Shown: in pieces, positions 8,239 through 16,761 of the stretch
How positions within the stretch are numbered: position 1 is the first letter of the stretch
How the letters are laid out: each line of letters begins with the position of its first letter
NCBI GenBank assembly: GCA_021811275.1
Contig: JAJZPI010000017.1
Location: 1-36,377, forward strand
DNA from: Deltaproteobacteria bacterium
Lineage (GTDB): Bacteria > Desulfobacterota > Desulfarculia > Desulfarculales > Desulfarculaceae
Length of the DNA: 36,377 bases
Direction of reading: 5' to 3'
The notes under the pieces: model-generated
Seen by the model: only the letters and a program-made list of their open reading frames with translations
Databases searched by the model: none
Told to the model about the DNA's origin: nothing
Translations under genes and position numbers: made by a program

Positions 8239-11200
8239 CTACATGCCTCTTCTGTACTGACCACCGACCGAGTAGAGAGCCTTGGTGATCTGTCCCAGGG
8301 AGCAGACGCGCACGGTGTTCATCAGCTCGGCGAAGACGTTGCCGCCGGTCAGGGCCATCTGCTGCAGGCGCTTCAGGGCGGCCGGCGCCTCGTCGGCGTG
8401 GCGAGCCTGGAAGTCGCGCAGGCGGGAAAGCTGGCTCTGCTTCTCCTCCTCGCTGGCCCGGGCCAGCTCGATCTTGCACTCCTGGGCCAGCTCGTCGGCC
8501 CGGGGATTCAGGAAGGAGTTGACGCCGATGATGGGCAGCTCGCCGGTATGCTTCAAGGTTTCGTAGTAGATGGACTCCTCCTGGATCTTGCTGCGCTGGT
8601 AGCCGGTCTCCATGGCACCCAGCACCCCGCCCCGGGCGGTGATGCGGCAGAACTCGTCCAGCACCGCCTCCTCCACCAGCCGGGTCAGCTCCTCGACGAT
8701 GAAGGCCCCCTGCAGGGGGTTCTCGTTCTTGGTCAGCCCCCACTCGCGGTTGATGATGAGTTGGATGGCCAAGGCCCGGCGCACGCTCTCCTCGGTGGGG
8801 GTGGTGATGGCCTCGTCGTAGGCGTTGGTGTGCAGGCTGTTGCAGTTGTCGTAGACCGCGCACAGCGCCTGCAGGGTGGTGCGCGCGTCGTTGAACTGGA
8901 TCTCCTGCGAATGCAGGGAGCGACCCGAGGTCTGGATGTGGTACTTGAGCATCTGGCTGCGGGCGGCGGCCCCGTATTTTTCGCGCATGGCCACGGCCCA
9001 GATGCGCCGGGCCACCCGGCCGATGACCGTGAACTCCGGGTCCATGCCGTTACTGAAGAAGAAGCTCAAGTTGGGTGCGAACTCGTTTATGTCCATGCCC
9101 CGGCTAAGGTAGTACTCCACATAGGTGAAGCCGTTGGCCAGGGTGAAGGCCAACTGGCTGATGGGGTTGGCCCCGGCCTCGGCGATGTGGTAGCCGCTGA
9201 TGGACACGCTGTAGAAATTCTTGATCTCCTTCTCGATGAAATACTGCTGGATGTCGCCCATCATGCGCAGGGCGAAGTCGATGGAGAAGATGCAGGTGTT
9301 CTGGCCCTGATCCTCCTTCAAGATGTCGGCCTGCACCGTGCCGCGCACGTTCTTGAGCACCATGGCCTTCAGGCGGGCCTGCTCCTCGCGGTCGGGTTCC
9401 CGCTTGTTCTCCTCGCGGAAGCGCTCCAGTTGCTGATCGATGGCGGTGTTCAAGAAGAAGGCCAGCATGATCGGCGCGGGACCGTTGATGGTCATGGAGA
9501 CGCTGGTGTTGGGCGAACAAAGGTCGAAGCCGCCGTAGAGCACCTTCATGTCCTCGAGGGTGCAGATGGAAACCCCTGAGTTGCCCACCTTGCCGTAGAT
9601 GTCCGGGCGTTCGTCCGGGTCCCAGCCGTAGAGGGTCACCGAGTCGAAGGCCGTGCTTAGCCTGGCGGCCTTGGCGTCGGCCGAGAGCAGCTTGAAGCGA
9701 CGGTTGGTGCGGAAGGGGTCGCCCTCGCCGGCGAACATGCGTGTGGGGTCCTCGTCGGTGCGCTTGAAGGGAAAGACCCCGGCGGTGTAGGGGAAGCGTC
9801 CGGGCACGTTTTCCGAGCGCATCCAGGCGTAGATGTCCCCGGGGTCGCTATAGCGCGGCAGCACCACCTTGGGTATCTCCATGCCGGCCAGGGAACGCAC
9901 GGTCAAGGGCGCCCGAAACTCGCGGCCGCGCACCTTGTAGACGTACTCGCTGCCGGAATAGGATTTGCACATTTCCGGCCACTCGGCCAGGAGTTGGTGA
10001 GTCTCCTCGGTGTAGCCTCCTTCCAGCTTGTGCACCTCCGAACGGAGGCGGTCCAGGGCCGGAGTTAGCCCGGCTTCGCCCCGCCAGGACTCGGCCATGG
10101 CGTCGTGCACCTGCTTCATCTGATGCACGCGGCGCACCAGATCGGCCTGCTTGGCCGTCTCGGAGTGGTAGGCGCGCACGGTGTCGGCGATCTCCGCCAG
10201 ATAGCGGGTGCGCTCGGCCGGCACGATGATGGTCTTGTCCGAGGAGTGCTTGAGCTTGGGCCGGGGGCGCGGGCTCATAAACTCCACCCCGGTCTTTTCC
10301 CTGATGGTGTCCAGGATGGTTAGGTAGAGGGCGGTGACTCCGTCATCGTTGAACTTGCTGGCGATGGTGCCGTAGGCCGGCATATGCTCTGGCTGGGTGT
10401 GCCAGGCGTCGCGGTTGCGCTGGAGCTGTTTGCGCACGTCGCGCAGGGCGTCGTCGGCGCCCCGGCGGTCGAACTTGTTGATGGCCACCAGATCGGCGAA
10501 GTCGAGCATGTCGATCTTCTCCAGCTGGCTGGCCGCGCCGAAGTCGGATGTCATGACGTAAAGGCTGACGTCCACCAGGTCCACCACCGCGGCGTCGCCT
10601 TGGCCGATGCCGGCTGTCTCCACGATGACCAGGTCGTAGCCCGCGGCCTGGACCACGGGTATCACGTCGCCCAGGCCCTGGCTGATCTCCATGCCGCTGC
10701 CCCGGGTGGCCAGGGAGCGCAGGTAGAGCCGGGACGACTCCAGGCTGTTCATGCGGATGCGGTCGCCCAACAACGCCCCTCCGCTGCGGCGGCGGGTGGG
10801 GTCCACGCTCAGGATGGCCACCCGCTTCTCGGGGAAGTCATGAAGGAAGCGCAGCAGTATCTCGTCGGTGAGGCTGGACTTGCCCGCCCCGCCGGTGCCG
10901 GTGATGCCCACCACAGGCACCTTGCGTCCGCCCGCGCGGGCGGTCAGGGCCTCGCGCCAGGCCGGCAGACCCGGGCTAGAGGCCAGGGCCGCCCGCTCCA
11001 CGCAGGTGATGACCCGGGCCACCACCTCCGGCCGGGAATGGTCCAGGCCCTCCACCAGACCAGGATCCGCGCCTTCCCACTGGGGGAGGTCGACCGAGCG
11101 CACCAGGTGGTTGATGATGCCCTGCAAGCCCAGCTTGCGCCCATCCTCCGGCGAGTAGATCTTGGCCACCCCGTAGTCTTCGAGCTCGCGGATCTCCTCG

Positions 11201-11523
11201 GGCACGATCACCCCGCCGCCCCCGCCGAAGACCTTGATGTGGCCGCAGTCGGCCTCGCGCAGAAGATCCACGGCGTACTTGAAGAACTCCATGTGCCCGC
11301 CCTGGTAGCAGCTGACGGCGATGCACTGGGCGTCCTCCTGGATGGCCGCCTCCACGATCTCGGCCACGGCCCGGTTGTGCCCCAGGTGGATGACCTCCAC
11401 GCCCGTGGCCTGCAGGATGCGGCGGATGATGTTGATGGCCGCGTCGTGGCCGTCGAAGAGGCTGGCGGCGGTGACGGCGCGCACGGGGTGCTTGGGCGCA
11501 TAGGGGGTGGTCTCGAAGGTCAT
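8239..11523 (-). CDS. icmF: fused isobutyryl-CoA mutase IcmF
   Basis: This is a 1094-residue adenosylcobalamin mutase fused to its own G-protein chaperone; it interconverts isobutyryl-CoA and n-butyryl-CoA (or related branched acyl-CoAs). Domain order: a B12-binding domain (1-140, cobalt-ligand His26 in FDGHDAA), a MeaB-like GTPase (P-loop GTGGAGKS, 209-216), and the mutase barrel (about 540-1094). Two specificity positions identify it: F597 (RMFAGEG), where methylmalonyl-CoA mutases have Tyr, and Q741 (GQNTCIF), where they have the carboxylate-binding Arg. It is therefore not a methylmalonyl-CoA mutase. The start at 11523 has GGAG 9 nt upstream; the frame is open further to 11745. It lies 128 bp after the tetR gene in an operon with a palindromic operator. 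Confidence 0.95.
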
Positions 11524-11651
11524 GGCGGTTCTCCGCGGGGTTGCTGGTTGTTGCCTGCGGGCTTCGCGCCCCCCGCCGGGCCGGGTGTGGCCAAGGGGAG
11601 GAGCGGGCGGCTTGGGCCCCGTGGTGTCGGGACCCAAGGCCGACAATCGTT

Positions 11652-12323
11652 TCAGGTCAGCTCCCCCAGGATCAGGGAGCGCTGCAATTCGGTGTACTGC
11701 TCCAAGGTGAAGCGCGGGGCCAAGGCCCAGCGCCGGAAGGTCCACATGTGGCCCAGCACGGCGATGTTGTGGGCCATGAGCTCGATCTGGGCGCGGTCCA
11801 GGGGCTTCAGGGAGTAGTCGGCCACGCCGCGGCCCAAAAGGTCGGCGAAGATGGCCGTAATGCGCTCCTCGTGGGCCAGCACGAAGCGCATGGACTCCTT
11901 GGGCAGGCTCTTGGTCTCTTGGTAGATGAGCAGGATGTGGTCGCTCATCTGGTCGCAGACCTCGAAGAAGACCTCGATGGCCGCCGAGAGCGCCGCCGCG
12001 CCGGTGCCCGCGAACTTCAGCCGCTCCTTGAGGCGTTGCTCCATCTCCAGGTGGATTGCCTGGCAGACCAGATAGAGCACATCCTCCTTGCTGGCCACGT
12101 ACTCATAAAGGGTCCCGATGGAAAAGCCGGCGGCTTTGGCCATCTCGCGGGTGGTGGTCTTGTGGAAGCCCTTTTGGATGAACAGTTGCACCGCCGCGTC
12201 GACGATCTGACGGCGGCGCTTGGCCACCAGGCCGGCGTCCTTGACCTCGGTGGGGATGTCCCGGGCCGGCTCCTGGGTCTCGGTCTCCGGGGCCGGAGCG
12301 GGGCTGGGCTGCAGGGGCTTCAT
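11652..12323 (-). CDS. TetR family regulator of the icmF operon
   Basis: This is a 223-residue repressor with a Pro-rich tail before the helix-turn-helix (about 35-85: [19 protein letters not shown], then [29 protein letters not shown]). The C-terminal domain would bind a ligand, plausibly an acyl-CoA given the neighbour icmF. The ATG at 12323 overlaps the stop codon of the upstream gene (ATGA), so translation is coupled. I infer that it binds the 18-bp palindrome found in its own operon promoter and in the promoter of the MBL gene at 12903-13814. Confidence 0.9.
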
Positions 12324-13960: not shown

Positions 13961-15073
13961 ATGAGCGATCGTCCCCACCCCCACGGCCACCCCGGCGGCC
14001 ATCCCCACGCCCCCGCCCTCGGCGAGCCCCCTGCCCTGCGCTTGGTCGCCTGGGAAACCACCCGCCGCTGCAACCTCTCCTGCGTGCACTGCCGGGCCGG
14101 GGCCCTGGACGAGCACTACCCCAATGAGCTGACAACCACCGAGGGCGAGGCATTGCTCACCGACCTGCGCGGCCTGGGCCAGCCGGTAATCATCATGACC
14201 GGCGGCGAACCCCTGCTGCGCGAGGACATATTTCACCTGGCCCGCTTCGGCACCGACCTGGGCCTGCGCATGGTCATGGCGGTCAACGGGACGCTACTGA
14301 CCCCGGAGATCGCCCATAAGCTGAAAAACGCCGGCATACAGCGCCTCTCCATTTCCATCGACGGCCCGGACGCGGCCAGCCACGACACCTTCCGCGGCCA
14401 GCCGGGGGCCTTCGAGGGAGCCCTGGCCGGCATGGCCGCAGCTCGCGCCGCCGGCCTGCCCTTCCAGATCAACACCACCATCACCCGCACCAACCTGCCC
14501 TGGATAGAACGCATCTACCATCTGGCCCAGAACTTAAGCGCGGTGGCGCACCACATCTTCCTGCTGGTGCCCACGGGCCGGGGCCGGGCCCTGACCGGCG
14601 AGATCATCAGCGCCCGGGAATACGAGGACGTGCTGCACTGGTTCGCGGGCGAGAAGTTCGCCGGCCCGCCCATCGAGCTCAAGGCCACCTGCGCCCCGCA
14701 CTTTTACCGCATCCTGCGCCAGGAGGCCAAGGAGCGCGGGGTAAAGCTCTCCTTTGAAACCCACGGCCTGGACGCGGTGACCAAAGGCTGCCTGGGCGGC
14801 CAGGGCTTCGCCTTCGTCAGCCACGTGGGCCAAGTCCAACCCTGCGGCTACCTGGAGCTGGCCGCCGGCAACGTCAAGGAGAGGACCTTCAGCGCCATCT
14901 GGCGCGACTCCGAGCTGTTCAAACGCCTGCGCGACGCCGACCTGCTGAAGGGCAAGTGCGGGGTCTGCGAATACCGCCGGGTCTGCGGTGGCTGTCGGGC
15001 CCGCGCCTACGAGGTCAGCGGCGACGAGATGGCCGAGGAACCCCTATGCCTGTACGCTCCGGCCGGGCAATAG
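13961..15073 (+). CDS. ahbD: radical SAM heme b synthase AhbD (siroheme-dependent pathway)
   Basis: This is a 370-residue radical SAM enzyme expected to decarboxylate the two propionates of iron-coproporphyrin III to form heme b, the last step of the alternative pathway in sulfate reducers and archaea. The N-terminus is rich in His, Gly and Pro (HPHGHPGGHPHAP), a feature I associate with deltaproteobacterial AhbD. The SAM cluster motif is C37-x3-C41-x2-C44. The SPASM-like C-terminus has CLGGQGFAFVSHVGQVQPCGYL and CGVCEYRRVCGGCRARAYE for auxiliary clusters. HIFLLVPTGRG and LKATCAPHFYRILRQ are typical of AhbD rather than AhbC. AAGGAG precedes the ATG. Confidence 0.85.
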   Translation: MSDRPHPHGHPGGHPHAPALGEPPALRLVAWETTRRCNLSCVHCRAGALDEHYPNELTTTEGEALLTDLRGLGQPVIIMTGGEPLLREDIFHLARFGTDLGLRMVMAVNGTLLTPEIAHKLKNAGIQRLSISIDGPDAASHDTFRGQPGAFEGALAGMAAARAAGLPFQINTTITRTNLPWIERIYHLAQNLSAVAHHIFLLVPTGRGRALTGEIISAREYEDVLHWFAGEKFAGPPIELKATCAPHFYRILRQEAKERGVKLSFETHGLDAVTKGCLGGQGFAFVSHVGQVQPCGYLELAAGNVKERTFSAIWRDSELFKRLRDADLLKGKCGVCEYRRVCGGCRARAYEVSGDEMAEEPLCLYAPAGQ

Positions 15074-15159: not shown

Positions 15160-15201
15160 CAACTACTTCAATCAAAAAACAACATATTTACAAAGTAGTT
15201 G
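15160..15201. repeat. inverted repeat in AT-rich leader upstream of the riboswitch
   Basis: CAACTACTT (15160-15168) and AAGTAGTTG (15193-15201) are perfect 9-bp arms 24 bp apart. They lie within an AT-rich stretch (about 15110-15260) that contrasts with the surrounding high GC. This stretch probably holds the promoter of the riboswitch transcript, and the repeat may be an operator. I see no clear -35/-10 pair. Confidence 0.45.
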
Positions 15202-15274
15202 AATCAAGATAGCCCACAAGATCACAACTAGTGAATTGATTTGGCTGTTTGATTGTCTCCGGCGCTCGACGAAC

Positions 15275-15366
15275 CGAGGAACGAAAAGGCAAACCATTCG
15301 AAAGGATGGGGCGCAAAGTCTCCGGCCTAAAGCCTCGCGGCCAAGGCAGCGGAACCGCCGAAATCT
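15275..15366 (+). promoter_or_regulatory. c-di-GMP-I riboswitch (GEMM-I)
   Basis: The aptamer core matches the GEMM-I consensus and the Vibrio Vc2 example almost base for base. GGCAAACC (15288-15295) leads into a hairpin CCATTC-GAAA-GGATGG closed by the conserved GAAA tetraloop. It continues with GGGGCGCAAAG, then TCTCCGGCCTAAAGCC as tetraloop receptor side, and a third helix region GGCAGCGGAACCGCC. The positions equivalent to Vc2 G20 and A47 are G and A, as expected for c-di-GMP rather than cGAMP. It lies about 165 nt upstream of the Sel1 and CheX genes. The expression platform is not obvious; only a GGCCC-TGCAT-GGGCC hairpin (15397-15411) without a U-run is seen. Confidence 0.88.
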
Positions 15367-15531
15367 TGGGGAGTGACCTGCCGATTTCCCACCTCCGGCC
15401 CTGCATGGGCCCGAGCCTGCACCCCGGCACCCCTTGATCTTTCACCCCCGCGCCAGCCGAGCCTTTGGGCAAAGCCAACGGTCCGCCTTCCTGCCCAGGG
15501 CGGCGGTGGCCGGCACGAGGGGTTGGGGGGA

Positions 15532-16131
15532 ATGAAGCAACAACGCCGTCCAGATGGTCCACCGGGCCCCTTGGAACAGTACCAGCGCGGCCTTGCCCAC
15601 GCCCGGGGGCTCGGCGTCCCGCTGGATTTCGCCGAGGCGGCCAGGCGCTTCCTGGCAGCGGCCGCGAGTGGCCATGCCAAATCGCAGTACAACCTGGGGG
15701 TTATGCACCTGACCGGCCTGGGGGCGAGGCAGGATCCTGACGAGGCCATGCGCTGGTTCGGCCTGGCGGCCGAGCGGGGCGAGGCCAGGGCGCAATTCAA
15801 TCTTGGCATCATGCATTTGAACGGGCACGACGGCGTGCGTGACCCCGCCAAGGCGGCGGAGTGGTTCAACCTGGCCGCCCAGGCCGGCCACGGCCTGGCC
15901 CAGCACAATCTGGGCCTCATGTACTGGCGCGGCCTGGGCTTGGAACGGGACCTCGCCCGCGCCCACATGTGGCTTAGCCTGGCCGCCGACGGAGCCGAGT
16001 GTGGCCAAACCGGCGAGTCGGCGGCGGCCCGTGACGAACTGGCGGCCATGATGACCAGCGATCAAATGGCCGAAGCCAAGGCTCTGGCCACGGACTTCCA
16101 GCCCCGAGGCGGGCCGACTGGGGACGATTGA
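15532..16131 (+). CDS. Sel1-repeat protein
   Basis: This is a 199-residue alpha-alpha repeat protein with four Sel1-like repeats. Typical segments are YQRGLAHARGLGVPLDFAEA, YNLGVMHLTGLGARQDPDEA, FNLGIMHLNGHDGVRDPAKA and HNLGLMYWRGLGLERDLARA. Such proteins act as scaffolds in signalling or envelope processes. No signal peptide is present, so it is probably cytoplasmic. I chose the ATG at 15532, preceded by a G-rich ribosome site; the frame is open upstream to 15373. It is the first gene after the c-di-GMP riboswitch and is followed 65 bp later by a CheX-like gene, which suggests a c-di-GMP-responsive motility or surface-behaviour unit. Confidence 0.85.
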   Translation: MKQQRRPDGPPGPLEQYQRGLAHARGLGVPLDFAEAARRFLAAAASGHAKSQYNLGVMHLTGLGARQDPDEAMRWFGLAAERGEARAQFNLGIMHLNGHDGVRDPAKAAEWFNLAAQAGHGLAQHNLGLMYWRGLGLERDLARAHMWLSLAADGAECGQTGESAAARDELAAMMTSDQMAEAKALATDFQPRGGPTGDD

Positions 16132-16195: not shown

Positions 16196-16687
16196 ATGAT
16201 GGACGTGGAGTACGTCAACCCGTTCCTGCACGCGGCCGTAAAAGTTTTCAAGACCATGGCCCGCACCGAGGCCGAGGCGGGCAAGCCCTTTCTCAAAAAG
16301 GGCGACCTGGCCAAGGGCGATATCTCGGGCATCATCGGGCTGAGCAACGAAAACCTCGAGGCCTCGCTGTCGCTGTCGTTTCACGAAACCTGCATCTGCT
16401 TCATCGTCAGCAACATGCTGGGCGAGATGATCCAAAAAATAAACATGGAGGTGGTCGACGCGGTGGGCGAGATCACCAATATGATCTCCGGGGACGGCCG
16501 GCGTGAACTCTCCGAGCAGGGCATCTCCCTGAAAGCCGGCATCCCCACCGTGGTCAAGGGCAAGGGCCACAGCATCAAGCACATGACCAGGGGCCCGGTC
16601 ATCGCCATACCGTTCAAGACCAAGGCCGGGCCCTTCGTGATTGAGGTGGGACACAAGTCTTTGGGTCGCGTGGTCGCCCGCCGCTGA
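16196..16687 (+). CDS. CheX-like chemotaxis phosphatase
   Basis: This is a 163-residue protein of the CheX family, which dephosphorylates CheY-P. The catalytic ExxN pair is E92-I-T-N95 within VVDAVGEITNMISGDGRREL, and the C-terminal strand segment resembles CheX (GIPTVVKGKGHSIKH). The start may be the second ATG (16199), which gives a better 6-nt spacing to GGGAGG. It is second after the c-di-GMP riboswitch and ends at a strong terminator. The family is clear; whether it acts on a flagellar or another response regulator cannot be seen here. Confidence 0.85.
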   Translation: MMDVEYVNPFLHAAVKVFKTMARTEAEAGKPFLKKGDLAKGDISGIIGLSNENLEASLSLSFHETCICFIVSNMLGEMIQKINMEVVDAVGEITNMISGDGRRELSEQGISLKAGIPTVVKGKGHSIKHMTRGPVIAIPFKTKAGPFVIEVGHKSLGRVVARR

Positions 16688-16724: not shown

Positions 16725-16757
16725 GGCCGGGGCGATTCATCGCCCCGGCCGAGGCTT
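16725..16757 (+). terminator. intrinsic terminator after the CheX-like gene
   Basis: A perfect 11-bp GC-rich stem (16725-16735 with 16740-16750) with loop TTCA is followed by gaggcTTTT. It closes the riboswitch-Sel1-CheX transcript. Confidence 0.75.
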
Positions 16758-16761
16758 TTGG

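Follow-up and report, generated by a model that had tools for sequence, protein, structure and literature searches.

The principal result of this analysis is a c-di-GMP-I (GEMM-I) riboswitch that probably forms part of the 5' leader of a transcription unit made up of sel1 and cheX and acts on both genes in cis. In the 36,377-nucleotide stretch of DNA analyzed here (the window), a complete canonical aptamer is followed by two genes on the same strand, with no intrinsic terminator intervening between the aptamer and the genes.

A cmscan search recovered the Rfam family RF01051 (c-di-GMP-I) at positions 15278-15362 of the forward strand, with 70.6 bits (E 4.4e-12) against a gathering score of 35 bits and an alignment spanning the entire model (1-87/87), which upholds the class assignment made in an earlier note on this DNA. 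It is the only RF01051 copy (E 1.1e-13) detected in a search of the whole genome (3.95 Mb, 98% complete, Desulfarculaceae). In keeping with this family, the CheX genes in genomes of its genus and family are identical to those of records named Desulfarculus and Desulfocarbo. The elements which that note had named are all in place, namely the GAAA loop (15300-15303), the GCGCAAAG core (15311-15318) and the loop-receptor strands CCTAAA and AAGG (about 15326-15346), and the aptamer accordingly displays the GNRA tetraloop and receptor by which type 1 is defined (PMC11218506). When aligned to the model, G15288, A15315 and C15358 correspond to the pocket bases G20, A47 and C92 of Vc2 (numbering after PMC9262584 and PMC6274999), indicating that the c-di-GMP pocket is preserved. 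A possible P1 helix is weakly suggested by the complementarity, seen by reading, of CCGAGG (15274-15279, +) and TCTTGG (15364-15369, +), with the pairs CG, CG, GU, AU, GC and GU, i.e. including two G-U pairs. The aptamer and this helix together cover almost exactly the interval originally proposed (15275-15366). The segment 15278-15362 is thus confirmed at the sequence level as a canonical type-1 GEMM-I riboswitch, which in itself is ordinary.

The first downstream gene (15532-16131, +) encodes a 199-residue Sel1-repeat protein (PF08238, 114.4 bits, three repeats), in which no obvious signal peptide was apparent on reading. Its start was placed at an in-frame ATG, 9 nt downstream of a G-rich candidate ribosome-binding site (GAGGGG; 15517-15531, +), in preference to the GTG at 15373, which lies only 11 nt after the aptamer and whose first 53 residues match no family. 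The second gene follows on the same strand after a gap of about 64 nt, is preceded by GGAGG, and codes for a 163-residue CheX-type CheY-P phosphatase (16196-16687, +; PF13690, 71.6 bits, cut-off 27 bits), so that both members of the predicted Sel1-CheX gene pair are recovered by their domains. This protein matches CheX homologues of solved structure (E 1.6e-38), and its catalytic E92 and N95 are invariant in 18 relatives; in light of the domain score and the intact E..N pair, it is a CheX phosphatase of predicted activity. After cheX we noted by reading an 11-bp hairpin and short T-run (16725-16758, +; GGCCGGGGCGA-TTCA-TCGCCCCGGCC then GAGGCTTTT). It falls below the criteria of the terminator scan and probably marks the end of the transcription unit.

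Directly upstream of the leader lies a gene for the AhbD heme b synthase (13961-15073, +; 536 bits, above the NCBIfam cut-off), and no evident link of ahbD to the riboswitch unit was found. An AT-rich stretch upstream of the aptamer contains a perfect 9-bp inverted repeat, CAACTACTT (15160-15168) and AAGTAGTTG (15193-15201), a possible operator. Elsewhere in the window (8239-11745, -) a single 1168-residue protein combines B12-binding, MeaB-type GTPase and methylmalonyl-CoA-mutase domains in an IcmF-like fusion.

A second instance of the association is seen in a member of the same family but another genus (G007), where a canonical RF01051 RNA (60.9 bits) is situated about 60 nt upstream of a CheX gene without an intervening Sel1. 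The CheX protein of that locus is 54% identical to the window CheX. In the tree it groups with a paralogue from genome G006 (support 100/100), and the window CheX groups with the ordinary CheX genes of the family; the two riboswitch-linked genes therefore fall in different parts of the tree and are not sisters, though the data remain compatible with a single clade (AU test, p 0.11). Given this separation, the pairing of riboswitch and cheX does not clearly go back to an old conserved operon, a reading that we set aside while noting that the AU test allows a single clade; parsimony favors two gains. The longest branch of the tree belongs to a third, fast-evolving CheX paralogue of G007 (L052, G007:C1:3577599-3578045), which also has an unusual composition. 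No other strong GEMM-I match was detected near CheX in a covariance search of 100 loci, nearly all of them CheX loci, and the phylum-wide positions of GEMM-I and CheX were compared by eye among the matches listed. The link of CheX to GEMM-I is hence rare but seen twice, the two linked cases contrasting with some 100 CheX loci devoid of a nearby GEMM-I, in agreement with the prior description of the pair as a less usual output. On the assumption of roughly three CheX genes in every 3,500 genes, with two downstream positions counted, the chance probability of a second linked case comes to about 0.02 when the family's ten other GEMM-I copies are considered and to about 0.07 for the 45 copies of all relatives searched. 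This estimate is suggestive rather than strong; nevertheless, a separate second case in a neighboring genus makes a chance pairing less likely.

The same comparisons bear on the alternative that the riboswitch is real but has Sel1 as its physiological target, CheX being a distal passenger that is expressed independently. In favor of this, Sel1 heads the unit, cheX has its own GGAGG, and Sel1 adjoins CheX in none of roughly 100 other CheX loci. We rejected a conserved Sel1-CheX pair on the basis that no other CheX locus among the 104 loci searched shows this adjacency; the pairing is therefore probably recent. Against a Sel1 target stands the G007 locus, in which the same class of riboswitch directly precedes cheX without Sel1, and we regard this alternative as appreciably less probable than joint control of both genes, albeit the strongest of the competing explanations.

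Other GEMM-I RNAs of the order provide a broader context. The canonical versions in two further genomes (G010 and G020) occur upstream of HDOD signaling proteins. The GEMM-I RNAs of the sister species (G001-G003) and of G006 resemble one another, and those scanned in G002 and G003 best match the c-di-GMP-I-GGC variant (RF03167). Downstream of seven of the eight GEMM-I RNAs of these genomes, the seven that were checked, are genes for PEP-CTERM or thioester-domain proteins, and several of the RNAs have evident terminators. The loci with GGC-type switches (RF03167 where scanned) before such exported proteins (L007, L008, L010, L020, L021, L022 and L027) often form tandem switch-plus-gene arrays. 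In this small set, canonical RF01051 RNAs precede genes for cytoplasmic signaling proteins (CheX, HDOD) and GGC-type RNAs precede those for exported proteins.

The expression platform of the window riboswitch has to be sought in a leader of 170 nt. A terminator scan found no plus-strand intrinsic terminator from the aptamer to the genes, in accord with the earlier statement that the platform is not a classic terminator, and an intrinsic terminator was rejected as the platform. The promoter scan found no promoter, and the full leader is predicted to fold no more stably than its shuffled versions (z +0.9). In constrained folds, which took an AUG 2 nt downstream of 15532, the openness of the ribosome-binding site was 0.13 both with and without the bound aptamer and P1, and did not differ from that in shuffled leaders; the suggested comparison of folds with a ligand-stabilized P1 thus yielded no change in accessibility, and sequestration of this site switched by P1 is unsupported. 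The 78 nt directly 3' of the aptamer (15377-15454, +) are C-rich and G-poor, with a C-G bias of 0.31 that exceeds that of 99.9% of all segments of this length taken from the two strands of the window. This composition fits a candidate Rho-loading (rut-like) region and points to Rho-dependent control as a possibility. No relative was found with the same leader in which the platform could be tested. Taken together, the platform most likely works through Rho-dependent termination, through control of translation or through a combination of the two, and the switch may be of the ON or the OFF type. An intact but decoupled aptamer, a relic of transposition or deletion that controls nothing, would account for a solitary copy in the genome, for the lack of a recognizable platform and for the 170-nt leader; yet the high score and the retention of every pocket base are unlikely for a relic, and the coding regions are intact, making this explanation very improbable.

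With respect to the ligand, the aptamer has G15288 at the position which, on alignment to the model, is equivalent to G20 of Vc2 and is A14 in the cGAMP riboswitch (PMC6274999). The A that characterizes cGAMP-selective GEMM-Ib RNAs is hence not found here, and c-di-GMP is for this reason the likelier ligand, even if the position is a selectivity factor and not a hard filter (PMC9262584). The host genome has 15 strong GGDEF matches, and of the 14 with a readable motif 13 display the Asp typical of diguanylate cyclases. The remaining one is a GAF-GGDEF protein, as judged by reading (L177, G000:C110, 23-1027), with the Hypr signature, i.e. Ser at the selectivity position together with a GGDEF motif (PMC6456294). 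This protein is a candidate cGAMP synthase encoded in the same genome as the aptamer, and the host may produce some cGAMP. That the actual ligand in the cell is 3',3'-cGAMP nonetheless appears very unlikely, as this single protein has to be set against the G at the A14/G20 position and the 13 GGDEF domains with the c-di-GMP-type Asp.

We accordingly return to c-di-GMP-dependent control of both genes. The ligand would bind the nascent leader and alter the expression of sel1 and cheX in cis; the abundance of CheX would then follow the level of c-di-GMP and set the lifetime of phosphorylated CheY-like regulators, which would place chemotaxis under riboswitch control. The proposal that the unit ties c-di-GMP directly to chemotaxis is in keeping with the catalytic residues of CheX and with the chemotaxis and flagellin genes of the host (15 CheW-domain and four flagellin_N matches). 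However, the direct tie is something we infer, and in addition to this CheX the host encodes two others with the same domain, one at 66% identity. Known links between c-di-GMP and chemotaxis chiefly involve PilZ-type proteins and chemoreceptors. It is conceivable, though on balance doubtful, that in Desulfarculaceae c-di-GMP riboswitches were, on at least two occasions, coupled to different CheX paralogues, with c-di-GMP setting CheY-P lifetime via phosphatase abundance, here by a terminator-less and possibly Rho-dependent leader. If true, this would represent an RNA-level link from c-di-GMP to the termination of the chemotactic signal, and a CheY-P phosphatase directly controlled by a riboswitch would allow a slow, abundance-based retuning of swimming bias with lifestyle.

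The presence of c-di-GMP riboswitches upstream of motility and chemotaxis genes is established (PMC6366702). The view that the gene pair is an unusual, chemotactic output consequently holds for CheX, which is rare as a target, but not for chemotaxis genes at large, given that mcpE is already known under the c-di-GMP-I riboswitch Bc1 (PMC11218506). A full-text search of open-licence papers returned articles whose titles and abstracts do not deal with a riboswitch upstream of cheX, and CheX is apparently an unreported target gene for this class. Like the type 1 (RF01051) riboswitches Vc2 and Cd1, the window RNA is full-length, with the GAAA loop, receptor and pocket G, A and C; unlike them, it has Sel1-CheX as its target, and no terminator-type platform was seen. 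It shares clan, overall fold and genus with the RF03167 riboswitches of the sister species, which differ in a P2 base and loop, in their intrinsic terminators and in the PEP-CTERM exported proteins downstream. The window CheX shows whole-length homology to the CheX CheY-P phosphatases of solved structure 1xko, 1squ, 3hzh, 3h4y and 3hm4 and has the E..N catalytic pair; its activity is a prediction, and it does not reach the cut-off that NCBIfam sets for Thermotogales CheX. A further parallel is the Bc1-mcpE system of Bacillus thuringiensis, in which a c-di-GMP-I riboswitch with a long expression platform likewise precedes a chemotaxis gene (PMC11218506). The Bc1 leader has two intrinsic terminators, whereas that of the window has none, and Bc1 acts on a chemoreceptor gene where the target in the window is a phosphatase.
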